Position numbers and translations under genes: made by a program. Shown here in pieces: positions 20 to 61,136 of a stretch of DNA of 64,000 nucleotides. How positions within the stretch are numbered: position 1 is the stretch's first letter; the number at the start of each line of letters is the position of its first letter. The notes below the pieces were generated by a model. The model saw only the letters and a list, made by a program, of their open reading frames with translations. It was not told the origin of the DNA and did not search any database. Source of the DNA: Candidatus Altimarinota bacterium (GTDB taxonomy: Bacteria; Patescibacteriota; Gracilibacteria; UBA4473); assembly GCA_021734395.1 (NCBI GenBank), contig JAIPJB010000001.1:1-64000 (forward strand), in the 5' to 3' direction.

Positions 20-599
20 TAATTCGACCCTTTGACTTCTTTGTCTCTTTTTTCTTTGCGAGCGAAGCGAGCAAAGGGGTACTCCCAGTTAATTTCTTGT
101 CATTCCGGCGCACCTCTGTCATTCCTGCGCATGCAGGAATCTCTCTGTCATTCCGGTTCATAACGCAGTGGAGATACCGGAATCTCTCTGTCATTCCTGC
201 GCATGCAGGAATCCATCTCATCTTCTATTTCGGAGATCCTGGGACAAGCCCGGGATGACATAAAGAGTAAAGGTGTCGTTCCTCCCTTTCTGTCATTCCG
301 GCCGAAGTGCCGGAATCTTTTGTCATTCCGGTTCGTAACGCAGTGGAGATACCGGAATCTCATTTATCCATTCCCCAGATACTTTTAACAATAAAAAGAT
401 AATAACCGAGAAGGAAAGCTTGATTTTAATTTTTTATAAATTATATTAAAAAAGGTCAGGTTTTTTTGTGCTACGGTTCAAAAAAGAGAGCCATATCAGT
501 CCAATAGCCCCCTTGCTTTTCGTGCAAGGTATGATGAGGAGGTTCCTCGTTTCTTGTTTTTTTCTTAAAACAGGCAACAAATACAGTGGCTATCAAAAT
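20..599. repeat. Cluster of dispersed palindromes between DGR target and template repeat
   Basis: This gene-free stretch is mostly repeats. Several units have the form GTCATTCC, a palindrome, then GGAATC: a GCGCATGC-centred type near 117-141 and 201-213, and a GTTCGTAACGCAGTGG-centred type near 149-183 and 321-360. Another form ends GACAAGCCCGGGATGAC (243-260). From about 390 to 599 the DNA is AT-rich. The end of that part may be degenerate sequence related to the FISUMP coding region just upstream of the template repeat. No plausible gene is seen; short open frames here are by-products of the repeats. Confidence 0.75.
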
Positions 600-795
600 T
601 TTCAGCGCCTTTAGCTGGCTACCGAAATGTAACAGGAGGTTTCAACAATAGTGGATCAAATGCGAACGTCTGGTCGTCTTCTCAGAATAGCTCTACAAAT
701 GCATGGAGACGCAATCTGAATTCGGGCTACTCGACAATCAACCGTAATACAAACAATAAGAACAATGGCTTCTCCCTCCGTTGCCTCAAGGACTG
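600..795 (+). repeat. DGR template repeat (TR)
   Basis: Read in the frame of base 620 (GGC TAC CGA), this non-genic segment encodes a FISUMP-like C-terminus: GYRNVTGGFNN, then VWSSSQNSS, AWRRNLNSGYS and ending GFSLRCLKD. About 14 AAC/AAT codons fall between 641 and 770, the hallmark of a template repeat whose adenines are mutated during cDNA synthesis. Its 3' end (778-795) is identical to the variable-repeat tail at 1-18. The left boundary is uncertain; homology to the protein family can be followed in frame back to about 600. There is no start codon or ribosome site, so it is a template and not a gene. The transcript would read toward the reverse transcriptase at 1105. Confidence 0.85.
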
Positions 796-1104
796 GTTTT
801 ATTTCTTTCTTCTTGTCATTCCTGCGCCCATCTGTCATTCCTGCGCATGCAGGAATCTCTTTGTCATTCCGGTTCGACACATAGTGGAGATACCGGAATC
901 TTCGTCCTCTACCTAAGATCCCGGGACAAGCCCGGGATGACATAAAGAGTAAAGGTGTCGTTCCTCCCTTTCTGTCATTCCTGCGCATTCTTGTCATTCC
1001 GGTTCGTAACGCAGTGGAGATACCGGAATCTCCCCTAAAAATTAAATTTAGATAAATTTTTAATTTGTCATTCAATCATTGATTTTTTAGAATGAAATTA
1101 AAAT
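796..1104. repeat. Palindrome cluster between TR and reverse transcriptase
   Basis: The stretch holds at least four dispersed repeat units: GTCATTCCTGCGCATGCAGG (834-853), GTCATTCCGGTTCGACAC (863-880), a CCCGGGACAAGCCCGGGATGAC unit ending near 941, and GTCATTCCGGTTCGTAACGC (994-1013). The last 70 bases are AT-rich and lead into the reverse transcriptase gene. No gene is supported here. Part of this region could be the structured spacer RNA that follows the template repeat in a DGR transcript, but no specific fold was recognised. Confidence 0.7.
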
Positions 1105-2253
1105 ATGGAAGTCCCCCCTCATTTATTACAGGATCTTTTTCAAGCGTATTTTGATGCTCGAAGAAACAAAAGAAATACCAATAATCAGCTCCAATTTGAA
1201 CTGAATTATGAAAAAAATATTTTCGCCCTTTTTTCTCAATTAAAAGATAAATCCTACTCCATTTCCAAAAGTATTTGTTTTATTGTTTTTTATCCCGTAA
1301 AACGAGAAATTTTTGCTGGAGATTTTCGTGATAGAGTTATCCATCATTTAGTCTTCAATGCGCTCAATCCTCTCTTTGAAAAACTATTTATATACGATAG
1401 TTACAGTTGTAGAAAAGAAAAAGGTCCTCTTTTTGGTATAAAAAGAGTGCAATATTTTCATCGATCATGCTCTCGTAATTACCAAAAAGAATCTTTTTTC
1501 CTTAAATTGGATATTCAGGGATATTTTATGTCCATTGATCAAAAAATCCTTTTCCAAAAAATACAACGAGCAATCCAACGGAAACAGATCCCTTATGCGG
1601 AATTTTGGTTATGGCTTTTAGAACTTATTATCTTTCATGACCCCACAAAAAACTGCGTCATGAAAGGACACAAAAAAGATTGGGACGGGTTGCCTCCTTC
1701 CAAAAGTCTGTTTGGTACTTCGTGTGGAACAGGTCTTCCTATTGGCAATCTTACTTCTCAACTTTTCGGAAATGTATACCTCAATGATTTTGATCATTTT
1801 ATAAAATCTCAAATGAAGTGTCGGTATTATGGTCGTTATGTAGATGATTTCGTCATATTGGATAATGATAAAGAATTTCTCAAATTTCTTATTCCCAAAA
1901 TAAAAACATTCCTTCACGAAAACACAAGACTTATTTTACATCCCAAAAAAATTCATTTGCAACCCTGCAAAAACGGAATTCCTTTTTTGGGAGCAATTAT
2001 AAAGCCCTATAGAACCTATGTCAGAAATCGAACAAAAGGAGCTTTTTTCAAAAAAATTCAATATTGGGAAAATCAAATGCCTCTCTCTTCCAAAGAAAAA
2101 CAATCCTGTACTTCCTGCTTGCAATCATATTTGGGACTGATGAAACACTTCAATACTTCGCGTCTTCAGGAAAAAATGATCCAAAGAAACATGTCTCCTG
2201 AGTTACGAAAAATTTTTCACAAAAATAAACCTCCCATTTATGACCACATATAA
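1105..2253 (+). CDS. DGR reverse transcriptase
   Basis: A 382-residue group-II-intron-like reverse transcriptase of the diversity-generating retroelement type. The palm Asp of motif 3 is D136 in LDIQGYF. Motif 4 reads GLPIGNLTSQLFGN with I213-G-N-L-T-S-Q219, the IGxxxSQ signature that separates DGR enzymes from other bacterial RTs (which have QGxxxSP). The catalytic YVDD is residues 245-248. Downstream IPFLGAII fits the primer-grip region. No maturase or endonuclease domain follows, as expected for the class. It would copy the template repeat at 600-795 into adenine-mutated cDNA that replaces the variable repeat of the target gene. It overlaps the Avd gene by 14 bases, suggesting co-translation. 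Start chosen at the first ATG; no clear ribosome site. Confidence 0.95.
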   Translation: MEVPPHLLQDLFQAYFDARRNKRNTNNQLQFELNYEKNIFALFSQLKDKSYSISKSICFIVFYPVKREIFAGDFRDRVIHHLVFNALNPLFEKLFIYDSYSCRKEKGPLFGIKRVQYFHRSCSRNYQKESFFLKLDIQGYFMSIDQKILFQKIQRAIQRKQIPYAEFWLWLLELIIFHDPTKNCVMKGHKKDWDGLPPSKSLFGTSCGTGLPIGNLTSQLFGNVYLNDFDHFIKSQMKCRYYGRYVDDFVILDNDKEFLKFLIPKIKTFLHENTRLILHPKKIHLQPCKNGIPFLGAIIKPYRTYVRNRTKGAFFKKIQYWENQMPLSSKEKQSCTSCLQSYLGLMKHFNTSRLQEKMIQRNMSPELRKIFHKNKPPIYDHI

Positions 2254-2617
2254 TAATTTACCGCTTTATAAAGGCAGTTATGACTTTCTCTTGGCAACTT
2301 TTCAAATTTGTAAGCATTTTAGCAAAGAATATAAATATACAATCGGCGATGATCTCAAAAAAGAAATAACTCTCCTCGTAAAAAATATTTATCATGCCAA
2401 TGGAAGTCAAAAAAATCGCGTGCAATATATTCAGCAAGCACAGGAAAATGTTGAAACAATCCGCCTTTATATTCGTCTTCTCAAAGATCTTCATCAAATC
2501 AATATCGAAAAATTCACAACACTCAACGAAAAACTGGAATCAATCTCCAAGCAGCTTTCTGCATGGAAAAAATATTCAGAAGCAAATCAACCCCAAAAAT
2601 CTAGTTCTTTTTGTTGA
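2240..2617 (+). CDS. avd: Avd-like DGR accessory protein (four-helix bundle)
   Basis: A 125-residue, largely helical basic protein. The opening LPLYKGSYDFLLATFQICKH, then GDDLKKEITLLVKNIYHAN and a C-terminal TIRLYIRLLKDL helix match the pattern of the Avd/23S-rRNA-intervening-sequence four-helix-bundle family. In studied DGRs Avd forms a pentamer that binds the reverse transcriptase and template RNA and is needed for mutagenic homing. Its start lies 14 bases inside the end of the RT gene, in a different frame. In the Bordetella phage DGR avd lies upstream of the TR; here it follows the RT. The call rests on pattern plus position beside a DGR RT. Confidence 0.85.
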   Translation: MTTYNNLPLYKGSYDFLLATFQICKHFSKEYKYTIGDDLKKEITLLVKNIYHANGSQKNRVQYIQQAQENVETIRLYIRLLKDLHQINIEKFTTLNEKLESISKQLSAWKKYSEANQPQKSSSFC

Positions 2618-2996
2618 TATTGCTTTTTCAGCTTTATCATTCCTGCGCACCTCTGTCATTCCTGCGTATGCAGGAATCTCTTTGTCATTCTGGTTCGGCA
2701 CGCAGTGAAGATATCAGAATCTTCGTCCTCTACCTAAGATCCCGGGACAAGCCCGGGATGACACAATCAGGAATCTCATTTATCTATTTCTGAGATACCG
2801 GTATGTCGCTCCGCTCCAACCGGTATGACAACTTTTTTCTGTCATTCCTGCGCATGCAGGAATCCATCTCATCTTCTATTTCGGAGATCCCGGGACAAGC
2901 CCGGGATGACATAATACTGTCATCCTGACACACTCTTGTCATTCCTGCGTATTCTTGTCATTCCGGCCGAAGTGCCGGAATCTTTATATTCCTCTT
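2618..2996. repeat. Palindrome cluster downstream of the DGR
   Basis: No gene. The stretch is a string of the same repeat types as on the other side of the DGR: GTCATTCCTGCGTATGCAGG (2656-2675), CCCGGGACAAGCCCGGGATGAC units ending near 2762 and 2911, an ACCGGTATGTCGCTCCG unit (2798-2814) ending in CCGGTATGAC (2820-2829), GTCATTCCTGCGCATGCAGG (2841-2860), and a GTCATTCCGGCCGAAGTG unit at 2957. The DGR is thus bounded on both sides by the same palindrome families. Confidence 0.75.
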
Positions 2997-3411
2997 GTCA
3001 TTCCGGCTGAAGTGCCGGAATCTCCTCCAATACTTGACTTCATCAAAAACGCTATGACAAAATAGAATTATGAAAACTTATTATGTATATATCCTCACGA
3101 ATAAAAAACAAGGAGTTCTGTACATAGGTGTCACCAATAATATAACCCGAAGAATATACGAACACAAAAAAGGAATCTTTGAAGGCTTTTCCAAAAAATA
3201 CAACTTAAAAAAACTTGTTTGGTTTGATGAAACGAACGATGTTTCTGCGGCTATTGAGACAGAAAAACGAATGAAGAAATGGAAGCGCCAGTATAAAATA
3301 AATGTTATAGAAGCATTAAATCCTTCTTGGAGAGATTTAAGTGAAGATTTCTTGGATATGGATTGGATGGAATGAGATACCGGTATGTCGTTTCACTCCA
3401 ACCGGTATGAC
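2997..3411. mobile_element. GIY-YIG cassette 1 with palindromic ends
   Basis: A 415-bp unit that begins with GTCATTCCGGCTGAAGTGCC (a palindrome closed by GGAATC) and ends with an ACCGGTATGTCG...CCGGTATGAC palindrome, so the outer ends are GTCAT and ATGAC in inverted orientation. It encloses only the GIY-YIG gene at 3070-3375. Two other GIY-YIG genes in the window (4021-4403 and 42285-42660) are boxed the same way with unrelated palindrome cores. Calling it a mobile element is inference from this shared architecture. Confidence 0.5.
3070..3375 (+). CDS. Small GIY-YIG nuclease-domain protein
   Basis: A 101-residue single-domain GIY-YIG protein of the UvrC N-terminal/YhbQ-like type. The GIY motif is seen as YYVYILTNKK near residues 4-13 and YIG as VLYIGVTNNI near 17-26, followed by RRIYEHK with the catalytic Arg and His, and a later conserved Glu in AAIETEKRMKKW. 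The NPSWRDLSEDFL ending is shared with the copies at 42322 and, less closely, 4058. Proteins of this size lack a DNA-recognition domain. Their cellular role is not established; roles in repair and in repeat or homing activity have been proposed for relatives. It sits alone between palindromic repeats with no operon partner. Confidence 0.9.
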   Translation: MKTYYVYILTNKKQGVLYIGVTNNITRRIYEHKKGIFEGFSKKYNLKKLVWFDETNDVSAAIETEKRMKKWKRQYKINVIEALNPSWRDLSEDFLDMDWME

Positions 3412-3654
3412 AATTTTTTTTCTGTCATTCCTGCACACTTTTGTCATTCCTGCGCATGCAGGAATCTCATTTATCTATTTCTAAGATACCGGTATGTCGC
3501 TCCGCTCCAACCGGTATGACAACTTTTTCTTTTATCATTCCTCCCTTTGTTGTCATTCCTGCGCACCTCTGTCATTCCGGCCGAAGTGCCGGAATCTTTT
3601 TATTTTTTCTTGTTTTTTTTATGCTCAAAGTGCTATCATGAGAACAATAAAAAA
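3412..3654. repeat. Palindrome cluster
   Basis: A further run of dispersed units: GTCATTCCTGCGCATGCAGG (3441-3460), an ACCGGTATGTCGCTCCG unit ending in GGTATGAC (3487-3521), and GTCATTCCGGCCGAAGTGCC (3570-3589). After 3600 the DNA becomes AT-rich, with TATCAT at 3633 as a weak -10 candidate for the frameshifted gene that follows. Confidence 0.65.
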
Positions 3655-4016
3655 ATGAAAAACTCATATTGTCCGTTGCCTTGGTTTCTGTTGCCAGCAT
3701 AGGTATTGTTTTGGGGTATGGAACCAATCGTATCGATGCTTTGGATGATGCAGGATTGAGTCTTTTTGATAACGATTCCAATGGTATTTTTATTCAAGAT
3801 GGTGGAAATGTGGGCATCGGGACGACTGCTCCTACTCAAGCCCTTGATGTAAACGGTCGTGTCCGCCTCCGAGCAAACGGAAAAGGCACGTGTGACGCGG
3901 ATGCCGCTGGAGCCATCGCATACGAAGAGACTGCCAATGTCGGTTACTTCTACGGCTGTAAAAAAACCGGCGAAGCGACCTATCAGTGGTTCGTGCTGGA
4001 GATATTTGGGGAGTAA
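3655..4016 (+). pseudogene. Secreted S74/tail-fibre-like small protein, frameshifted after codon 3
   Basis: From ATG 3655 the frame reads MKNSYCPL and stops within 50 bases. One base added to the A run at 3658-3662 would give MKKLILSVALVSVASIGIVLG, a good signal peptide, and continue in the open frame that runs from 3669 to TAA at 4014. The mature part contains VGIGTTAPTQALDVNGRVRL, the motif found before trimeric S74-type or tail-fibre-like domains, then two Cys (KGTCDADAAG and YFYGCKKT). The lesion is a single-base loss in a homopolymer: it may be real, phase-variable, or a sequencing error. An alternative TTG start at 3669 would give a 115-residue product that keeps most of the hydrophobic core of the signal. 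Confidence 0.7.
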
Positions 4017-4020
4017 GAAA

Positions 4021-4403
4021 GTCATCCCCGTGAAGACGGGGATCCAAAGCTTTTCAATTGATGGAACCAAAACAACCAGCGGTGTATATCCTAGCCAATA
4101 AAAAGAACGGCACTCTGTACATAGGAGTAACGAGTGATTTAGAACATCGTGTCTGGGAACACAAACAGGAAAAAATACCTGGATTCACAAAAAAATATTC
4201 CATAAACAAGCTCGTGTACTATGAGCTTTATGAGAACATAAGAAATGCGATCCAACGAGAAAAAGATCTCAAGCATTGGAATCGACTTTGGAAGTTGAGA
4301 TTGATAAATCAATATAATTCGAATTGGAAAGATTTATACGAAGACATCGCGAGATAAAAATAATGCGTGCGAAGGTTTGGGTTCCCGCCTCCGCGGGAAT
4401 GAC
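4021..4403. mobile_element. GIY-YIG cassette 2 with palindromic ends
   Basis: A 383-bp unit starting GTCATCCCCGTGAAGACGGG and ending with a palindrome that finishes CCGCGGGAATGAC. It contains a single GIY-YIG gene. The left end starts 4 bases after the stop codon of the frameshifted gene before it, suggesting insertion right at a gene end. Architecture matches cassettes 1 and 3; mobility is inferred, not shown. Confidence 0.5.
4058..4357 (+). CDS. Small GIY-YIG nuclease-domain protein
   Basis: A 99-residue single-domain GIY-YIG protein (start ATG 4058 or the adjacent in-frame ATG at 4061). Motifs: AVYILANKKNG (GIY position), TLYIGVTSDLEHRVWEHK (YIG plus catalytic Arg/His), PGFTKKYSINKLVYYE, and AIQREKDLKHWNRLWK with the metal-binding Glu. 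It resembles the copies at 3070 and 42322 but is clearly diverged, so these are not recent duplicates. The upstream palindrome ends 13 bases before the start codon, leaving no room for an independent promoter outside the repeat. Confidence 0.9.
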   Translation: MMEPKQPAVYILANKKNGTLYIGVTSDLEHRVWEHKQEKIPGFTKKYSINKLVYYELYENIRNAIQREKDLKHWNRLWKLRLINQYNSNWKDLYEDIAR

Positions 4404-42284: not shown

Positions 42285-42660
42285 GTCATCCCGCATTTAT
42301 TGCGGGATCTAACCTTCACAAATGCGAAAATTATATTATGTATATCTCCTTACGAACCCCACCAGAACGGTTTTTTATGTTGGAGTTACGAATAATTTAA
42401 TAAGACGTTGTTACGAACATAAAAATAAACTCATTGATGGATTCACAAAAAAATATAATTGTTCCCAACTTATGTACTTTGAAGAAACCAATGATATATC
42501 TATAGCCATAACAAGAGAAAAACAGCTCAAACACTATTCTCAAAAATGGAAATCAAATCTTATTCGGGAAATAAATCCTGAGTGGCGAGATTTGAGTTCT
42601 GATTTTTTATAATTCAGAATGTTCTTTCCTGTTTAGACCCCGGAACAAGTCCAGGGTGAC
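42285..42660. mobile_element. GIY-YIG cassette 3 with palindromic ends
   Basis: A 376-bp unit starting GTCATCCCGCATTTATTGCG (closed by GGATCT) and ending with a GACCCCGGAACAAGTCCAGG-GTGAC palindrome. It encloses the GIY-YIG gene at 42322-42612 and stands alone between thrS and gapA, far from the other two cassettes. The lone placement supports the idea that gene plus palindromes is the unit. Confidence 0.5.
42322..42612 (+). CDS. Small GIY-YIG nuclease-domain protein
   Basis: 96 residues: LYYVYLLTNPTRT (GIY position), VFYVGVTNNLIRRCYEHK (YIG position changed to YVG, catalytic Arg and His kept), DGFTKKYNCSQLMYFEE, AITREKQLKHYSQKW with the metal-site Glu, and ending NPEWRDLSSDFL, nearly the same end as the copy at 3070. 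The start codon lies 11 bases after the 5' palindrome. Confidence 0.9.
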   Translation: MRKLYYVYLLTNPTRTVFYVGVTNNLIRRCYEHKNKLIDGFTKKYNCSQLMYFEETNDISIAITREKQLKHYSQKWKSNLIREINPEWRDLSSDFL

Positions 42661-51073: not shown

Positions 51074-51332
51074 GTCATTCCCGCGGAGGCGGGAATCGCA
51101 TCACAATAGCACTCCTCAAAAATTTCAGCAGAAAGATCAAAATCCCCCTCATTCCCCCTTTTTCCCTTCGGCTTCGCTCAGGGTAGGCAAAGGGGGAGGA
51201 AAATCCCCTCCGTCTTTCGAAAAGAAGGAGATTTATAACATACCGCAACAAAATGAAGATACTCAAAAAATATTCTGCTTTCCATTTTTACACGATGTTC
51301 TTTCTCAGGATTCCCGCCTCCGCGGGAATGAC
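51074..51332. mobile_element. 259-bp MITE-like element, copy 1
   Basis: Starts GTCATTCCCGCGGAGGCGGG-AATC and ends with its exact reverse complement, giving 24-base terminal inverted repeats that are themselves the dispersed palindrome. Inside are the CCCCCTTT...CTTCGGCTTCGCTCAGGG repeat and a CTTTCGAAAAGAAGGAG segment. It encodes no convincing protein. A second copy, about 95 percent alike over the interior by eye, lies at 53024-53281 in the same orientation on the other side of the metzincin gene. Confidence 0.75.
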
Positions 51333-51765
51333 GAGAAAAACAAAATCTTCTTTTCGAAGGAAAAAATATCAGTACAATATATTTACAAAAAAACAAAAAT
51401 ATGTTATAATTATAAGTAGGAAGGATATGTTCTTTTGAAGCTCGAAGCGATACTTCTGTTCTGGACGATGTCGGTTTGATTTTCTTCTCGAAAACACCGG
51501 CTCTCGAGGGCAGATTTTCTATTTGAGCAGTTCTTTGACACAATCGGATAAACGGATGTGCTGACTTCACACGAAGGAGTGAAATTTTTTCCCTCCCTCT
51601 TTTACAAAGAGGGAGCAGGAGGGAGATTTCAAAATCCCCCTTCATTCCCCCTTTTTCCTTCGGCTTCGCTGAGGGCAGGGAGAAGGTTTTTCTCCTTCGT
51701 GCGCAAGAAAGCACACATGGAAAGTTTTATAATAAATCAATAACAAATCAAACAAGGAGGTCGTG
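51333..51765. other. Region before the metzincin gene
   Basis: No gene. TATAAT at about 51402 with AT-rich flanks may be a promoter. A second CCCCCTTTTTCCTTCGGC repeat block covers about 51585-51700, preceded by CCCTCTTTTACAAAGAGGG. AAGGAGG at 51754-51760 is a strong ribosome site for the next gene, unusual in this window. Confidence 0.5.
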
Positions 51766-52971
51766 ATGAAACGACTTATTTTATTTGTGCTGATGATGAG
51801 TGCTTGGATAGCACTCCAGGCACAGCCGACTCCGATCCCTCATCGTGAGCTTGCTCCCGATGATACAGTCCGGATCGTCTCCCCCGTCTTTGACGGGATG
51901 GAGTTTCCTCTCGCTGAATTTGAAGCGAGAGGGTACGAGATTGAAACGTATCTCGCCAGTAAAGGACTCTTCTACACAGTAGAAGTAGATCCTTATTTTA
52001 CAGATATTTCCAGCTATGGAGATAGTATTGCTGGCGTAAGATATATATTCCAACAATATGCACCAGGAAGAACATTATATGATTCTCTCCAGACATGGAG
52101 AGCGATGTATAATAGCGACTTGATTGTATTTATCGTCGAAGGAGGAACAAAACCCGGCAGCTCTCTCTATGACTTTTGTCTCGCTGGAGTTCGCAAGGAT
52201 GCCTTTTTGGAAGACAGTCTTGCTTTTGTCTATGGTCATGAGACGGGACATCTTTTTGGTGCTCATCATTATGATACCGTCTGGGATTCTGTGTCCCAGC
52301 GATGGTCCATTATTCATGCCATTGGTCCACGCGGACTTTTTGTCTCCGATACCAGCGCCTGGCGTTTTATCCGGACGTGGAGTGTGGGGATGTCAGGACC
52401 GTACGCATTTAGTATTTCTGATAGCACTATCGTACACCCTGACAGTGTTACTCTGAAATGGCGACCAGCTCTCACTGATACGATAGGAGGTCAGTACTCC
52501 TATCGCTATCAGCTCCGCAAAGATGGCAGTGTCGTCCAGGATGAAGTCCTAGCTGATACAGTCCTCACTCTCGCCTCACTCGAAAACAACACTGAATACC
52601 AGTGGCGGTTGAGAGCCGAGCATGAAAGCGAGATGAGTAGCTGGAGCCCGTGGTTTACATTCACCACCGACAATATGGTGGATATAGACGACGAACCAGC
52701 AGTTCCTCAATTGTTTGCACTTTCCCAAAACTATCCCAATCCGTTTAATCCCTCGACAACCATTGAGTTTTCACTGCCGCAATCTGGCAATATAAAACTC
52801 GTGGTATATGATATCTTAGGCAGAGAAGTGGCGATACTGATCGATGAATGGCAACATTCTGGTCAGCATTCTGTACACTTCGACGCCTCTCATCTTTCTG
52901 CGGGTATGTATGTCTACCGCCTCACGGCGAGTAGCTCTACTACCACAAAGAAAATGATACTGCTCAAATAA
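51766..52971 (+). CDS. Secreted metzincin-like protease with type IX secretion sorting domain
   Basis: 401 residues, start ATG 51766 set by AAGGAGG five bases upstream. Signal peptide MKRLILFVLMMSAWIALQAQ. The zinc motif is HETGHLFGAHH, H158-E159-xx-H162-xx-G165-xx-H168, a full metzincin HExxHxxGxxH. A fibronectin-like domain follows (SVTLKWRPALTDTIGG...YQWRLRAEHES), then a C-terminal domain with LSQNYPNPFNPSTTIEF, IKLVVYDILGREV and MYVYRLTA...KKMILLK, the type A sorting signal of type IX secretion typical of Bacteroidota, Ignavibacteria and relatives. No T9SS gene is in view. Strong ribosome site, terminator and flanking element copies suggest acquisition from an FCB-group donor. Confidence 0.92.
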   Translation: MKRLILFVLMMSAWIALQAQPTPIPHRELAPDDTVRIVSPVFDGMEFPLAEFEARGYEIETYLASKGLFYTVEVDPYFTDISSYGDSIAGVRYIFQQYAPGRTLYDSLQTWRAMYNSDLIVFIVEGGTKPGSSLYDFCLAGVRKDAFLEDSLAFVYGHETGHLFGAHHYDTVWDSVSQRWSIIHAIGPRGLFVSDTSAWRFIRTWSVGMSGPYAFSISDSTIVHPDSVTLKWRPALTDTIGGQYSYRYQLRKDGSVVQDEVLADTVLTLASLENNTEYQWRLRAEHESEMSSWSPWFTFTTDNMVDIDDEPAVPQLFALSQNYPNPFNPSTTIEFSLPQSGNIKLVVYDILGREVAILIDEWQHSGQHSVHFDASHLSAGMYVYRLTASSSTTTKKMILLK

Positions 52972-52975
52972 TCCC

Positions 52976-53016
52976 AAGACCGGTCTCTGTATTTTCGAGA
53001 CCGGTCTTTTTCGTAT
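52976..53016 (+). terminator. Rho-independent terminator of the metzincin gene
   Basis: Twelve-base perfect stem AAGACCGGTCTC / GAGACCGGTCTT around a nine-base loop, followed by a T run, starting 5 bases after the stop codon. Confidence 0.93.
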
Positions 53017-53023
53017 TCTTTTT

Positions 53024-53281
53024 GTCATTCCGGCCTGGCCGGAATCCCATCATAAGCGCACTCCTCAAAAATTTCAGCAGAAAGATCGAAATCCCCCTCA
53101 TTCCCCCTTTTTCCCTTCGGCTTCGCTCAGGGCAGGCAAAGGGGGAGGAAAACCCCCTCCGTCTTTCGAAAAGAAGGAGATTTATAACATACCGCAACAA
53201 AATGAAGATACTCAAAAAATATTCTGCTTTCCATTTTTACACGATATTCTTTCTCAGGATTCCGGGCAAGCCCGGAATGAC
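53024..53281. mobile_element. 258-bp MITE-like element, copy 2
   Basis: Starts GTCATTCCGGCCTGGCCGG and ends GATTCCGGGCAAGCCCGG-AATGAC. The interior, from CACTCCTCAAAAATTTCAGC to TTCTTTCTCAGGATTCC, is nearly identical to copy 1, while the terminal palindrome cores have been replaced by different ones. The end palindromes thus appear exchangeable. Confidence 0.75.
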
Positions 53282-53464
53282 TGTGTAATATTTCTGGATT
53301 GTGATTCGAACTCTGAAGCAAAGAGTGTTCGTCATTCCCGCCCCCGATCAAGTCGAGGACAGGCTCCGGCGGGATTCCTCTCAATGACAAGGAAAAGCTA
53401 AGACCGGTCTCTATATTTTGGAGACCGGTCTTGAAATCATCAGAAATTAACTTTCAGAAGGTTA
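53282..53464. repeat. Repeats downstream of the Cys-rich gene
   Basis: A GTCATTCCCGCCCCCGATC...GGATTCCTCTCAATGAC unit (53331-53388) and an AAGACCGGTCTC...GAGACCGGTCTT hairpin (53401-53434). Read on the minus strand, the hairpin could terminate the giant gene ending at 53465. The same order, CAATGACAAGGAAAAGC then AAGACCGGTCTT, occurs at 4552-4580. Confidence 0.6.
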
Positions 53465-56400
53465 TTATGGCCCCCAACACTGTTCGTTAGAGAAAACAGG
53501 ATCTTGATAACAACTCACCCACTGCGGAGCGGGACCTACGGCATTCAGACAATAGCCATCCGTTACAGTCGTCCCATCGGCCTTACAAACGACCGAAGTG
53601 ACCTGCCTTTTCCCACGATTTTGATCACATGTGATATAGGGAGGAGGATTCTCTACACAACACTCGCAATAATATCCCGTACCAGTCACTTCCCAAGAAT
53701 ACGTGGTCGGAGCGGGAGGAACGTTACACTCCCAAGACGTATCGGGTTTGGGACTTGGACAATAACTGTCTGACACCGTCGCTCCATCCGGACTTCTCTT
53801 GCACCGAACCGAGCGAGTGTAGTTCGAACACGGACATTGGACGACATCTGCAATCAGATTGTTTGGCACGACCAATGATGCCAGAAGATTTCTGTCAGGT
53901 CCTTTCATTTCGATATTCGGGCATCCCCAGCTACCGGTGTCCCAGTAATAGCTTGTTTCGGCACAACCTCCTTGGTAGGCGATTCGCCCCGAACCACATT
54001 TCCACTCACATTTTCGGCTGGTACAACTATTGACGGGTATTTTGGTCACATTGGAGGTCAGATTGGTGTTGTCCCCAGTACACATACTCGAGTTATTGGG
54101 TGTCGTGCCCGTGCATTCACAGCCAGTATAGCTCGTACAGCTCTGGCTGGTAGAGGGTTTTGCTCCGATCATACCCAAGCATTGATAATCCGTAACTGTC
54201 TGACCAGCTCCAGTCTTACAGGTAACACTGCGACTCTGAGTTCCTGAACCACAAGTCGTCGAACACGTTCCCCAGGATCCGGTCACCCAGTGAACACACA
54301 CACTCGGGTTTGCACTCGTGCAGGCCCAGCCACTCTCGACCTGACATACAGAATTACATCCATCACCACTGGAAGTGTCCCCATCATCACAAGACTCTCC
54401 TGTCTGCAACTGTCCATTTCCACAGACAGCATCTTTAACACAAGCACCTGCTCCTCCTCCCGCTTCAGAATCCCAGTGATAATTACTCGCACATTTGAAC
54501 TGACATGAGTCAGTCGATCCCCAGGTGCGATAGTTGGTCGTGGTATCGGTCTCGGGGTCCCAGGCAGCGCCATCCCAGTTTTGTGCATAACTGGAAACCG
54601 TATTCCAGACCGTGCCGGTGGATGGCTTTGCCGGACAAGTGTAGGTGCGAGAATTGCTGATACAGCTATTGCCACTCTGATGGTAGCCGCTATTACAGCT
54701 CACCACCTGACACTGACTCCAGCTATTGGTCCCCCAATTCCATGTCTGCTGACCGGTTCCGTTGGGGACCAAACACGATCGCGTATTGATACAAGAGCTA
54801 CCACTTTTGACGTATCCCTGATTACAGGTGTATTCGCATTTCGTACTGGTCGTGCATGAGCTGACAACAGTCTTCAAGACAGAAGATGTCAGATTGGTAT
54901 TGTCTCCTGAGCAGATACTCGCATTGCTGGGAGTCGATCCCGCACAGACATACGGCGTACAAGCTTGAATTCCTGTCAGATAATATGAGTATTGGTCACA
55001 TTTGTAACGACACGAAGTCGAAGAAGCTGTTGTATTATAATCAGTAAATGGATCATCAGCTGGCGTCCAAGATGATCCGTTCCAGCTCTGTGTATAGCTC
55101 GGTACTGTATTCCAGGTCGTGTGATCCGGCAGAGGGCTATTACAGCTATAAGTACGCGTCGTAGCACCGGGAGAGATACCTCCTGATGGGAATTCTCCGG
55201 ACCAGCTACTATTTCTCGCTGGGAAATCAATATCTACTGCCTGAACCCGATACTGATAGTCTGATCCCGAGCTGACATTCGTGTCGGTATAACTGGTACC
55301 CGTATGATAGGAGGCTACTCCAGACCAACTTCCCCATTCTCCTTGTCCAATGATGTCTGCTGTCAGCCATCGGCGAAAGATATTCGTCGGAGCAGAAGAA
55401 CTCGCGATACCGCTTCTGACTCGTCTCTCGACATTATAGGCATCTGCCCCTGAGACACTACCCCAGCTGACACTAATCTGTCCGGGACTACTCCCTCCAG
55501 ATGTTGATCCAGGAGGATTGAGTACCGGCTCACAGACACTGCCCGTATAGACATAGTTACTCGCACATGTGTAGCGGCACGAAGTCGAGGAAGCCGTTGT
55601 ATTATAATCGGTTACCCCATCGCTCGGAGGATTCCAAGTGGTACAGGAGCTTCCGTTGGAAGCGGTACAATCCTGAGGATAGCTCGACACTGTATTCCAG
55701 AGAGTTCCCGTACTGGGTTTTGGATTACAACTGTAGGTTCTGCTTTCCCAGGTACAATTGGACGCGCATCCGTCGCCATTGGATGTATTGCCATCGTCGC
55801 ATTCCTCCCCTTCACCAATATCCACATGCCCATCCCCACATGCTGGAGCTGGCGGAATAGTTTCACAAAGTTGTTTTTCAGTATTCCACTGATACCCTGA
55901 CGCACATTTGTAGCGACAGGACTCTGTGGAAGAAGTAGCATTGTAATCTGTATTTGAATCACTCACTGGGTTCCAAGTCGTACACGAACTTCCATTAGAA
56001 GCGGTACAAGCTTGTTGGTATTCATAGACCGTATTCCAAATCGTTCCGGTGGCAGGCTTATCGTTACAAGTGTAGGTTCGAGATTCCCAGGTACAGCTAG
56101 ATGAGCAACCATCGCCATTGGATATATTGCCATCATCGCATTCCTCGCCCGAATCGACCGTTCCATCTCCGCACGCTGGGTCGGGCGGAATAACCTCACA
56201 CACTTGAGATTCGGTATTCCATTGGTATCCAGATGTACATGTGTACTGGCAGGAGGTATCCGACGGGGTCGCATTATAATTGGTCGTCAGATCATCGTCC
56301 GGATCCCAGCGGGTGCAGATTGATCCGTTGGACTCCGTACAGGTCTGCTCGTAGTTCGACACGGTATTCCAAATCGTTCCTGTTGCTGGCTTGGCATTAC

Positions 56401-57388
56401 AAGAAAAGGTTTTTGTTTCCCAGGTACAGTTAGACGCACACCCATCCCCATTGGCGGTGTTGCCATCATCACAACTCTCTCCCTGGTCGATATTCCCATC
56501 TCCACAGGAAGGATCGGGGGGGATTTCTTCACATAATGATGATTCACTATTCCATTGATATCCACTCGCACATGTATACCGACATTCATCGCTTGCAGGA
56601 GTCGCATTGTAGTCGGTATCCGGATCGCTGACCGGACTCCAAAGTGTACACGATGTTCCATTGGAAGCCGCACAGGTTTGTTCGTATTGCGAAACAGTGT
56701 TCCAGCTTGTTCCCACGGCCGGCTTTGGATTACAAGAATACGTGCCCGTTTCCCACGCACAGCTTGAGGAGCATCCATCTCCATCGCTGGTATTATTATC
56801 ATCACAGGCTTCACCCGGATCCACCGTGCCATCTCCGCAGGAAGGAAGCGCTTCACACTGCTCTGTTCCACTATTCCAGCTATAACCACCTTCACAGACA
56901 AAGTGGCAGTCTTCAGTACTCTGGGTCGCATTATAGATAGCAGATTTAGAGGCCGGGGTAAAAGCTCCCCCCTGCCAGGTCTGCGTAAATGTTCCACTAA
57001 CATTCCAAATCGTATTCGCCGGTTTGGAATCACAATTTCCCTGTTGGGTAATGGTTCCCGACACAACACATCGAGGACTTCCATCTTCGTTGATCCCCGT
57101 CAACATCTCTCCGCCGGTACACCCAACTATGAGATTTTCACGAATAGATCGCAGGAAAAAAAGAATCTTATTCCATGAAGTGGCATTGACTTTGTCTCCA
57201 TCTTGGAATGTTCCTCCTTCCCCCGATCCCTGAACCTTTACAAAATCACTAAAACTAAAGTCGTTCCAACCGTTATTGAGTTCTACAACTCCTTGGGCGG
57301 AAAGAGCAGGAGTCAGGAAAAATAAAGCACTCAGGAAGACAATCCCTGCGCACAAAAAGCGAGCCAGCCGGGAAGATTTCTTTTTCAT
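53465..57388 (-). CDS. Giant secreted Cys-rich protein with DUF4215-like, Fn3-like and TSP1-like repeats
   Basis: 1307 residues with signal peptide (FLCAGIVFLSALFFLTPALSAQG). An N-domain (NGWNDFSFSDFVKVQGSGEGG; NKILFFLRSIREN) is shared with the paralog at 57524-61136. Five units of the CGDGxVDxGExCDDGNxxxGDGCxxxC type (Myxococcus Cys-rich/DUF4215) alternate with Cys/Trp repeats (FSCNAKPATGTIWNTVSNYEQTC and variants). A fibronectin-like domain (ISVSWGSVSGADAYNVERR) sits mid-protein, and TSP1-like units (WGTCSTTCGSGTQSRSVTC) near the C-terminus. No anchor or sorting signal is seen. Likely a surface adhesin or fibre; disulfides would be formed outside the membrane. Confidence 0.88.
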   Translation of the reverse strand: MKKKSSRLARFLCAGIVFLSALFFLTPALSAQGVVELNNGWNDFSFSDFVKVQGSGEGGTFQDGDKVNATSWNKILFFLRSIRENLIVGCTGGEMLTGINEDGSPRCVVSGTITQQGNCDSKPANTIWNVSGTFTQTWQGGAFTPASKSAIYNATQSTEDCHFVCEGGYSWNSGTEQCEALPSCGDGTVDPGEACDDNNTSDGDGCSSSCAWETGTYSCNPKPAVGTSWNTVSQYEQTCAASNGTSCTLWSPVSDPDTDYNATPASDECRYTCASGYQWNSESSLCEEIPPDPSCGDGNIDQGESCDDGNTANGDGCASNCTWETKTFSCNAKPATGTIWNTVSNYEQTCTESNGSICTRWDPDDDLTTNYNATPSDTSCQYTCTSGYQWNTESQVCEVIPPDPACGDGTVDSGEECDDGNISNGDGCSSSCTWESRTYTCNDKPATGTIWNTVYEYQQACTASNGSSCTTWNPVSDSNTDYNATSSTESCRYKCASGYQWNTEKQLCETIPPAPACGDGHVDIGEGEECDDGNTSNGDGCASNCTWESRTYSCNPKPSTGTLWNTVSSYPQDCTASNGSSCTTWNPPSDGVTDYNTTASSTSCRYTCASNYVYTGSVCEPVLNPPGSTSGGSSPGQISVSWGSVSGADAYNVERRVRSGIASSSAPTNIFRRWLTADIIGQGEWGSWSGVASYHTGTSYTDTNVSSGSDYQYRVQAVDIDFPARNSSWSGEFPSGGISPGATTRTYSCNSPLPDHTTWNTVPSYTQSWNGSSWTPADDPFTDYNTTASSTSCRYKCDQYSYYLTGIQACTPYVCAGSTPSNASICSGDNTNLTSSVLKTVVSSCTTSTKCEYTCNQGYVKSGSSCINTRSCLVPNGTGQQTWNWGTNSWSQCQVVSCNSGYHQSGNSCISNSRTYTCPAKPSTGTVWNTVSSYAQNWDGAAWDPETDTTTNYRTWGSTDSCQFKCASNYHWDSEAGGGAGACVKDAVCGNGQLQTGESCDDGDTSSGDGCNSVCQVESGWACTSANPSVCVHWVTGSWGTCSTTCGSGTQSRSVTCKTGAGQTVTDYQCLGMIGAKPSTSQSCTSYTGCECTGTTPNNSSMCTGDNTNLTSNVTKIPVNSCTSRKCEWKCGSGRIAYQGGCAETSYYWDTGSWGCPNIEMKGPDRNLLASLVVPNNLIADVVQCPCSNYTRSVRCKRSPDGATVSDSYCPSPKPDTSWECNVPPAPTTYSWEVTGTGYYCECCVENPPPYITCDQNRGKRQVTSVVCKADGTTVTDGYCLNAVGPAPQWVSCYQDPVFSNEQCWGP

Positions 57389-57523
57389 GAAAAAGAGTTT
57401 ATGTGTATTTTTCCTGCATTGTACTACAATTTTGGAATTGTAAAAAAATTTTTTTAAGACACTCTGCGAAAAAAGAAAGGATGATTATCCCAAAATGACA
57501 GATTTTTTCTTCCCGAAAATGTA

Positions 57524-60500
57524 TCAAAATGCAGTGGTTCCGGAACATTCTTCTGCGGTCCATTGCAATCCTGTATACGAGCAAGAGACCTCAAAAGCCG
57601 GAACCGACTGACCCGAGCAATAAGAATTGCTGACGGTATTTCCTTCCGAAGACTCACACCAGTAGCTTTGTCGACGTTTCCATCCGGTACACTGCCATCG
57701 GTAGACATTATAAGGATATCCTCCGATATAAGTGCAGCTCCCGCAGCCGGTGCCACCCGAACGACAGCAATAATTACAGCCTCCATAGGTCGCTTCCCAG
57801 CCATAAGTTATTGGATTTGCAGGACACGGAGCATTCTGACAGGATTGTAATCGGGAAGGCTTACTGCCCGAATCACAATAAAAATCATAACGAGTCGTTG
57901 ATCCTGATGAATTTTGACAGACCACATCACAGCGCCTTTCTCCAGGACATGTACTGGCGGCCAAAAGATTCAGAATATTCGTTTCTGCGGAAGCTATATA
58001 CAGAGGATTTTGTGCTATCAAACCACAAGGACCACAATTGACCTGCGCCCAGCTATAAGATTTACAACCATAACATCCGTCAGACAGACTGCTATTGCCG
58101 TCATCACATTCTTCTCCGTACCCCGGATCCACAACCCCGTCACCGCAGTGCCATACACAGGAGGTCCCGACTTTTTTGTAGCCACTGCCACACTCAACCT
58201 GACATACAGAGCTACAGCCATCGCCAGAAACCACATTTCCATCATCACATTCTTCCCCACTGTCTACTGTCCCATTTCCACACACTGCATCTTCTGCACA
58301 AGAACTTCCATTCCAAGAGTATCCACTCGAACACAGAAAATTACAGGCCGATCCATATCCGTAGGTATTGCTTTTTGTGGGCGACCAGGTCACCCCACAC
58401 ATATATCCGTAGAACGTCCAGTTGGACGTCTGCGTGTAGGCACTAGGACCAGTTCTGTATTGTCCTGTACTCAGACTCGGGCAATTTTTCGTTCGGGTCG
58501 AGGAAGAAGGGAGTCCGTATTCACACGCACCATTACCGGTATCTGTGCTGTCAGTACTATTGAAATGCCAATAGTACGTAGAAGAACCCTGATACGTCCC
58601 GTCCCCGCTATAAGCTTGACACCCACTCGCGACTGATCCGCTGCAAGATTTTGTGGTCGCTACACACTGATTGCCGCTAATTTGGTATCCACTATCACAA
58701 GATGTCGGCGTACAGGTCCCCCAGGAATTTATTTCCGGATCCCACGTCTGCTGACCGGTTCCATGGAGAATAGAGCACGATCGAGTATTGAGAACACAAG
58801 AGCTTCCACTTTTAATATATCCTTGGTTACAGGTATATTCGCATTTCGTCCCCGAGGTACAGCTGGAAACCAATGTTTTGGTCACGTCTCCTCCGATAAT
58901 ATTCGACGCATCACCGGAACAGAGAGTGGCATTGGAAGGGGTTGTTCCACGACAGGTATTTTTCACGCACCCACTATATTGATAGTTATAATACGGGTTA
59001 CAAGTGTACTCACACTTCGTCCCTGAGGTGCAACTAGAAACTAATGTTTTGGGAGTATTTTCCGTCAGACCGGCAGCATCTCCTGTACAAAGATTTGTAT
59101 TGGAGGGAGTTGTCCCTGTACAGCTACATCCAGAGGTATCACTACAACTCTGACTTGTTACTGGTTTTATCCCCGAACAATAGGCATCTGATATTGTGTT
59201 TCCCATGCCGTCTTTACAGACAACACTCCGAGTCTGTGTCCCTGTCCCACACGTGGTACTACAACTGCTCCACCCTCCCGCAACCCAACTCGTAGTCGTA
59301 CAGGTATTATTGATCCGCTGATATCCACTCGCACACTCATACCGACAGGAGGTCGAAGAAGGACTTGTATTATAGTCAGTGGTAGAATCACTTGACGGAC
59401 TCCAAGACGTACACAAACTTCCATTGGAAGAGGTACAGGTCTGCAGATAACTCGAAACCCTGTTCCAAGATGTCCCTGTGGATGGCTTTGGGCTACAGGA
59501 ATAAGTATTTGTTTCCCAACTGCAGTTGGACGCACATCCATCTCCACTGGAGGTATTGCCGTCATCACATTCCTCTCCCGAATCAACATTCCCGTCTCCG
59601 CACGCTGGAGCCGGAGGAATCACTTCACACGAACTTCCATTCCATTGATATCCAGATGCACATTTGTAACGACAAGAGGTCGAAGAAGGACTTGTATTAT
59701 AGTCGGTGGTAGAATCACTTGACGGACTCCAAGACGTACAGGAGCTTCCGTTCGAAGAAGTACAATTTTGAGGATATTCATACACCGTATTCCAGACAGT
59801 CCCCGTAGATGGCTTGTTATTACAAGAATACGTTCTTGATTCCCAATTACAGTTGGACGCACAGCCATCTCCACTGGAAGTATTGCCGTCATCACATTCC
59901 TCTCCCGAATCAACATTCCCGTCTCCACACGCTGGAGCCGGTGGAATCTCTTCGCAAGCCTGCGAGCTACTATTCCACTGATATCCTGATGCGCATTTAT
60001 AACGACAGGAAATCTCAGTAGGATTTTCATTGTGATTTGTCGTCAGGTCATCATCAGGATCCCATCGATTACAAATCGAGCCATTCGAACTCTGACAGGT
60101 CTGTTCATAATTCGAGACGGTATTCCAAACCGTGCCCGTATTTGGCTTTGCATTACAGGAAAAAGTTTTTGTTTCCCAGCGACAACCTGATGCACACCCA
60201 TCTCCATTAGAGGTATTTCCATCATCACATTCTTCTCCAGAATCAACATTTCCGTCTCCGCAAGAGGGAGCCGGAGGAATCTCTTCGCAAGCCTGCGAAC
60301 CGCTATTCCACTGATATCCTGATGCGCATTTATAACGACATTCATCGCTTACAGGAGTCGCATTGTAGTCGGTATCTGGATCACTCGCTGGACTCCAAGC
60401 CGTACAAGATGTGCCATTGGAAGCAGTACAGGTCTGATCATATTGGGCTACTGTATTCCAGCTTGTTCCGATCGCCGGCTTTGGATTACAAGAAAATATA

Positions 60501-61136
60501 TCGCTCTCCCAATTACAACTCGAAGAACATCCATCACCATTCGCTGTATTGGCATCGTCACACTCTTCCCCCGTGTCTATACTTCCATCTCCACAGGTCG
60601 GAACGGCTTCACATTGTCCTATCCCACTATTCCAAGTATACCCAGTCTGACACACGAAATGACAATCTTCACTGCTCTGAGTCGCATTGTAGACAGCCGA
60701 TTTAGAAGCTGGAGTAAAAGCTCCCCCCCTGCCAGGTTTGCGTAAATGTGTCACTGATATTCCAGATCGTATTGGCTGGTTTCGGATCACAGCTCTCTTG
60801 TTGGGTGATGGTTCCTGTATCGACACAACGAGGACTACCGTCCGCGTTAATACCAGTCAACATCTGTCCTCCAGAGCATCCAACCAAAAGATTCTGTCGG
60901 AGCAAACGCAAAAAACGCATAATTTTATTCCATGAATTTGCATCGACAGGATCCCCTTCCTCAAAAACTCCTTCCGTTCCCGATCCACGAACCTCTACAA
61001 AATCTCCAAAATTAAAATTATTCCAACCGTTTCCGAGCTCATCAAACCCTTGAGCCGAAACCGTCAATACGCAAAACACAAAAAAAAATGCTCCTGCCCA
61101 CAAAAAAGGTTTTGTTCGCAGAAATTTTTTCTTCAT
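57524..61136 (-). pseudogene. Paralogous giant Cys-rich protein, frameshifted at a G tract
   Basis: The N-terminal part (ATG 61136, signal peptide FLWAGAFFFVFCVLTVSAQG) reads to WQGG and then runs out of frame, stopping at 60702. The rest (six DUF4215-like units, TSP1-like WSSCSTTCGTGTQTRSVVC, ending EECSGTTAF) is open in the next frame to 57524. At the junction this gene has seven C on the plus strand (60723-60729, within CTCCCCCCCTGCC) where the intact paralog has six at the same codons. Removing one base restores WQGGAFTPASKSA and a protein of about 1204 residues. It may be a phase-variable tract, a true lesion, or an assembly error. Confidence 0.85.

Follow-up and report, generated by a model that had tools for sequence, protein, structure and literature searches.

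Two repeat copies around a secreted-protein gene in a Candidatus Altimarinota genome are probable derivatives of a GIY-YIG nuclease unit bounded by CGTC-class REP hairpins

Introduction

The closest described relatives of the repeats reported here are the CGTC-class REPs, which are defined by a (C)GTC tag leading into a stem of 8-9 bp that starts with AT, and by a loop of 4-5 bases, and which occur in several phyla, including dRS3 of Neisseria, RPE of Rickettsia and repeats in Wolbachia (Di Nocera et al. 2013, PMC3733652). In the account of the class given there, CGTC REPs 'apparently lack a dedicated transposase'. The hairpins of the present locus resemble these REPs, dRS3 among them, in the GTC tag, the AT-initial 8-bp stem, the loop of 4-5 bases, CCA as the commonest tail and the arrangement in inverted pairs; they differ in that a GIY-YIG gene recurs between the pairs, whereas the sections of that paper on the class report no transposase gene.

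Two further kinds of element invite comparison. REPINs and REPtrons, which are moved by RAYTs, likewise comprise two inverted REPs and a spacer, and exist in autonomous and non-autonomous forms; here, by contrast, a GIY-YIG gene takes the place of the Y1 transposase and a GTC tag that of GTAG. MITEs share with the present copies their shortness, lack of coding content, inverted ends and origin by internal deletion from a gene-bearing parent, but our copies show no target-site duplication and their ends vary from copy to copy. In Neisseria, the Ssn family of GIY-YIG site-specific single-strand nucleases is reportedly tied to NTS repeats, and there too a small free-standing GIY-YIG enzyme is linked to a repeated sequence; beside this link we set the units, gutted derivatives, filled and empty sites and matched ends observed here. 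The Neisseria work on Ssn and NTS probably covers part of the present findings, namely the nuclease-repeat link in that genus. Among the titles and abstract openings searched, none connects GIY-YIG genes to REPs, and the available portion of the RepRanger paper (PMC12306157) mentions neither RAYT nor transposase.

Results

Two repeat copies with REP hairpins as ends

The stretch analysed, hereafter the window, is the first 64000 bases of a 296-kb contig that belongs to a genome of 1.02 Mb and six contigs. Its two repeat copies, their parts and the gene between them are as follows.

51074-51332, plus strand: copy 1 (259 bp), a predicted non-autonomous, core-deleted unit with two identical CGTC-class REP hairpins as ends
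51074-51097, plus strand: left REP of copy 1, with GTC tag, 8-bp stem and GGAG loop
51137-51203, plus strand: another dispersed repeat, AATCCCCCTCATTCCCCC..., inside copy 1, with related stretches on contigs C3 and C1 and elsewhere on C6
51309-51332, minus strand: right REP of copy 1, the exact inverted repeat of its left REP
51766-52971, plus strand: gene lying between the two copies, with nothing tying it to either, for a secreted protein with a HETGHLFGAHHYD motif, an Fn3-like region and a Por secretion tail
53024-53281, plus strand: copy 2 (258 bp), a predicted core-deleted unit like copy 1, with other terminal REPs
53024-53046, plus strand: left REP of copy 2, from the hairpin pattern scan
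53258-53281, minus strand: right REP of copy 2, from the hairpin pattern scan

The initial annotation had described direct repeats of 259 and 258 bp around a protease gene, with exact 24-base terminal inverted repeats in copy 1, and comparison bore out both statements. The copies lie on the same strand and are 92-93% identical; across the 211 bases of their interiors (51098-51308 and 53047-53257) there are 8 differences, and the pair is therefore not fresh. Beyond the end hairpins, no alignment was found between the flanks of copy 1 and those of copy 2. The inverted ends of copy 1 are 0 edits apart, whilst the hairpins of copy 2 (left, GGCCTGGCC; right, GGGCTTGCCC) differ from them: the two ends of copy 2 are 3 edits from each other and 5-7 edits from the ends of copy 1, having been exchanged as entire blocks with the pairing preserved. 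The outermost ends of the pair, left of copy 1 and right of copy 2, are 7 edits apart. At full length, the element has these two copies in the genome. Further copies of the interior and target-site duplications had been named as features to look for; the CTTTCGAAAAGAAGGAG segment of the interior gave no other strong match anywhere in the genome, and no duplication was seen for copy 1, copy 2 or the pair, such that this mark of MITEs is lacking. Copy 2 is also bracketed by two terminator-like palindromes of 33 nt that are 94% identical, of which the first (52976-53008) follows the protease gene and the second (53400-53432) the DUF4215 gene of the opposite strand.

The copy 1 hairpin consists of GTC and a ATTCCCGC/GCGGGAAT stem closed by the loop GGAG, and those of copy 2 are similar; in both copies the tags of the terminal hairpins point outward. 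By tag, AT-initial stem and loop size, the window hairpins fall within the CGTC class. The pattern GTCATTCC-N10-GGAAT (≤1 mismatch) was found 11 times in the window, against 0.20 expected, and GTCATTCC-N4-16-GGAAT 32 times in the genome, against 0 for the reversed control pattern, in agreement with the initial view that the ends are built from a dispersed palindrome. Two further marks of the class, a CCA-like tail and many dispersed copies, are seen in these 32 genome matches and in the collected loci, where CCA is the commonest tail (192 of 384 distinct hairpins); the four window ends carry the tails CGC, CCC, CCT and CCT.

An intact unit in the same genome

At C5:32150-32523 of the same genome lies an intact GIY-YIG unit, in which a 109-aa protein is encoded between hairpins and the ends are as in the copies. 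Its GIY-YIG domain (PF01541, C5:32247-32465) scores 48.2 bits against a curated cut-off of 22.6. The stretch C5:32150-32509 matches only the ends of the copies, across their first 65 and last 55 bases, at 83-85% identity, and these ends contain fragments of the gene.

51085-51162, minus strand: C-terminal codon remnant in copy 1 (26 aligned residues, 62% to the C5 protein, tblastn E 5e-7)
53028-53111, minus strand: C-terminal codon remnant in copy 2 (28 aligned residues, 64%, tblastn E 6e-10)
51260-51314, minus strand: remnant of the GIY-YIG start region in copy 1 (85% to C5:32455-32509)

The window copies keep the two ends and gene fragments of this intact unit. In their core, the middle of the nuclease gene is replaced by the dispersed repeat together with the stretch that has no other strong match, and the derived junctions around the replaced core are common to both copies. 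As the copies share this derived interior, and neither flanks nor hairpins, the shortened unit itself reached a second place, with its boundaries at the hairpins. The suggestion that the copies are MITE-like gains from the presence in the same genome of a parent GIY-YIG gene with the same two ends, of which they have the form of internally deleted derivatives. We consider it likely that they are non-autonomous derivatives of a predicted mobile unit, a small free-standing GIY-YIG gene between outward-tagged CGTC-class REPs.

The window holds further genes of this family.

42285-42660, plus strand: complete 376-bp unit, an intact GIY-YIG gene with a GTC-tagged hairpin on either side
3079-4403, plus strand: two GIY-YIG genes (3079-3300 and 4079-4294) within a GTC-tagged hairpin cluster that spans 118-4403

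The cluster at 118-4403 resembles hairpin clusters of Neisseria, where a gonococcal GIY-YIG gene lies among 16 GTC-type hairpins in 3.3 kb. Elsewhere in the source genome (G000:C6:84018-84508), a small GIY-YIG gene is present in two tandem copies, each followed by what appears to be a repeated tRNA 3' end.

Hairpins next to small GIY-YIG genes in other genomes

For a survey of two sets of small GIY-YIG genes, a hairpin was counted where GTC led into a stem that starts with A-T and has 7 or more pairs, and was termed canonical where the tag faced outward from the gene. Set 1 comprised 125 genes among the matches listed, from 45 Gracilibacteria genomes, picked by protein family; long frames of the UvrC type and some twelve of the small genes listed are not part of it. 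Set 2 comprised 80 loci from GTDB genomes, picked by protein alignment and belonging, by record title, to Pseudomonadota, Bacteroidota, Chloroflexota, Omnitrophota, Spirochaetota and Patescibacteria; two of these loci (L252 and L253) duplicate genes of set 1, from the same genome.

Around the 125 set 1 genes among the matches listed, 18 GTC hairpins were tag-outward and 1 reversed within 150 nt upstream, and 23 were outward and 7 reversed within 250 nt downstream, with 0-4 per orientation in bins beyond 300 nt; seven permuted tags gave 8-22 matches each overall, against 97 for GTC. At least one canonical hairpin was found at 25 of these 125 listed genes, on both sides at 12. In set 2, 53 of 80 loci had a canonical hairpin, 33 of them on both sides, and in the nearest 150-nt bins outward hairpins outnumbered reversed ones by 35 to 12 upstream and by 48 to 12 downstream, where permuted tags gave 0-2. 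Under this definition no canonical hairpin was present at 100 of the 125 listed genes of set 1 or at 27 of the 80 loci of set 2. Hairpins differ from unit to unit, though they are often matched within one: left and right were identical in 7 of 12 set 1 units (shuffle mean 1.0) and 7 of 33 set 2 units (shuffle mean 0.7), a number reached in 0 of 10000 shuffles for either set. The same matched-end pattern is seen in copy 1 and, less exactly, in copy 2. Flanked genes belonged largely to one sequence subfamily (21 of 32 genes with its motif against 4 of 93 without), a subfamily that was defined after the data had been seen, and a labelled tree gave 9 changes, a count that comes without a shuffle control and is given no weight here. 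The association of GIY-YIG genes with outward REP hairpins is general, extending from Gracilibacteria to many phyla. At one locus (G055:C75, about 1501-1767), a REP-like hairpin lies within the GIY-YIG reading frame, which stays open.

Filled and empty sites

Between fnrL and a response regulator gene on Sphingobium megaplasmids, four sequences carry a unit (TomMM7A, TomMM15, TomTYG73, with a one-base gap in the nuclease frame, and TomTYG46) and five do not. At the same place TomTYG64 has one palindrome with the same stem and GTC on both sides, TomTYG74 a nearly identical palindrome and TomTYG65 another hairpin, and no hairpin was found there in TomTYG72 or S. herbicidovorans. The hairpin arms at this site give direct repeats of about 8 bases. 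A tree of the flanks places the filled sequences in a single clade (support 100). The unit-less sequences are resolved with supports of 50-96, and among them the left and right halves disagree.

On Sinorhizobium plasmids, the single palindrome of K101 corresponds in position to a gutted nuclease remnant of Ak57 with a hairpin on either side, and Shinella sumterensis showed no alignable stretch at this site. The gutted unit of Ak57 thus parallels, independently, the copies in the window. In both Sphingobium and Sinorhizobium a single hairpin palindrome occupies the empty site, and at the filled site two hairpins sharing its stem stand inverted to each other. Azospirillum lipoferum 4B has a nuclease gene and inverted hairpin pairs between sufB and sufC, where four relatives have neither nuclease gene nor hairpin; these unit-less sites are without any REP, and a resident REP is thus seen at some sites and not at others. 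At the Sinorhizobium purQ site the repeats around the nuclease gene are direct, not inverted. In Sinorhizobium sp. C101, a GIY-YIG gene lies between long direct repeats with a CTC-tagged hairpin inside, and Ak57 has a single degenerate hairpin copy at that site.

The gene between the copies

The protein encoded at 51766-52971 matches Por_Secre_tail above the Pfam cut-off, with its Fn3-like region just below; no metalloprotease family reached the cut-off in a profile search with the protein carrying the HETGHLFGAHHYD motif. A search of 145 relatives turned up no homologue of the protease domain, only matches to the secretion-tail end, and none of 76 stretches matched by a degenerate-pattern scan of GTDB was confirmed as a relative. 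The same-genus assembly G001 gave no 23S match. The gene had been called foreign, for which the Por_Secre_tail offers slight support; against this, such tails occur on another gene of the source genome (G000:C2, 1534-3306) and in relatives. Proteins with Por-type secretion tails are found in the small Gracilibacteria genomes G001, G011, G003 and G012 as well. The SprA_N profile of the T9SS matched 0 of 21 genomes, but control genomes likewise gave no match, so that this count carries no information on the system. The minus strand at 53465-60826 encodes a pair of neighbouring large proteins that are cysteine-rich and carry DUF4215 and TSP1 repeats.

Discussion

The likely origin of the window copies from a REP-bounded GIY-YIG unit carries with it a predicted mechanism, in which the GIY-YIG nuclease would be the mobilising enzyme. 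The nuclease may recognise the hairpin and cut the REP in single-stranded or cruciform form, single-strand cutting being suggested by analogy with what is said of the Ssn family. Repair from another copy, via the short homology of the hairpin arms, would then place the core between two copies of the local hairpin, and gutted copies would rely on nuclease supplied in trans. Such local-hairpin repair would explain why ends are matched within a unit and yet differ between copies of the same core. Insertion rather than deletion fits best as the source of the filled/empty difference; deletion between matching hairpin arms would yield an identical empty sequence, and so the direction is not certain. 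Several observations sit less easily with this explanation: the genes without a canonical hairpin (100 of 125 among the matches listed, and 27 of 80), the unit-less Azospirillum sites that hold no REP, and the three unit-less Sphingobium sequences without the same palindrome.

Palindromes are prone to deletion, and the hairpin arms offer direct repeats of about 8 bases, both of which would suit a reading in which nuclease genes simply lie in repeat-rich intergenic DNA, filled and empty sites reflect deletions through slippage from one hairpin arm to another, and the two window copies are relics left by chance. We regard this as quite unlikely, given the strict tag-outward orientation near genes, the matched ends within units, the sharp boundaries of the copies between unrelated flanks and the single clade formed by the filled Sphingobium sites. 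It is also unlikely, if slightly less so, that a Y1 (RAYT) transposase moves the copies as REPIN-like units, the nuclease gene being a passenger. The source genome has five Y1_Tnp matches, and across 60 genomes hairpin number tracks Y1 number slightly better than GIY-YIG number (Spearman 0.67 against 0.59), a point that tells against the nuclease too; RAYT mobilisation is kept as a reading because, compared across genomes, its correlation equals or exceeds that of the nuclease. RAYTs are, moreover, held to move GTAG REPs (PMC3733652). At the level of loci, however, the arrangement expected of REPINs and RAYTs is missing, with canonical GTC hairpins near 0 of 26 Y1 loci (26 from a longer list), and the sections on CGTC repeats in that same paper give no tyrosine transposase gene flanked by them. 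Neither G017, with 12 hairpins, nor G042, with 13, has a Y1 match; G042 has one weak PF01541 match, which counts against the nuclease as well.

The initial annotation saw in the two copies a composite element that could have carried the gene in. Direct repeats do stand on both sides of a gene whose protease domain has no homologue in 145 relatives, but for a composite transposon that brought the gene as one 2.2-kb unit one would look to the outermost ends, and these are 7 edits apart where the own ends of each copy differ by only 0 and 3. There is also no target duplication to be seen, the interiors differ at 8 of 211 positions in a pair that is not fresh, and no nuclease or transposase gene was recognised within the 2.2 kb. 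We consider this origin very improbable, and rejected it as the likely reading on account of the unmatched outer ends and the absent target duplication. Under the nuclease-unit explanation the protease gene probably just happens to lie between two unit arrivals, with nothing tying it to the copies. Its loss by recombination between the two copies is possible in principle.

A broader proposal, which we put forward tentatively and think somewhat less probable than its opposite, is that small GIY-YIG nucleases bracketed by CGTC REPs constitute a widespread, previously unassigned mobile class, which would home into single hairpin palindromes and duplicate the hairpin in inverted form, the unit thereby taking on the hairpin of its new site. 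The nuclease would then be the missing mobiliser of CGTC REPs, and the gutted window copies its MITEs. The recurrence of a nuclease gene inside pairs of matched hairpins, the sites with and without the unit and the gutted derivatives together provide a candidate enzyme and a bench-testable mechanism for CGTC REPs, and the unit points to a possible means of spread for one large class of hairpin repeats in bacteria.
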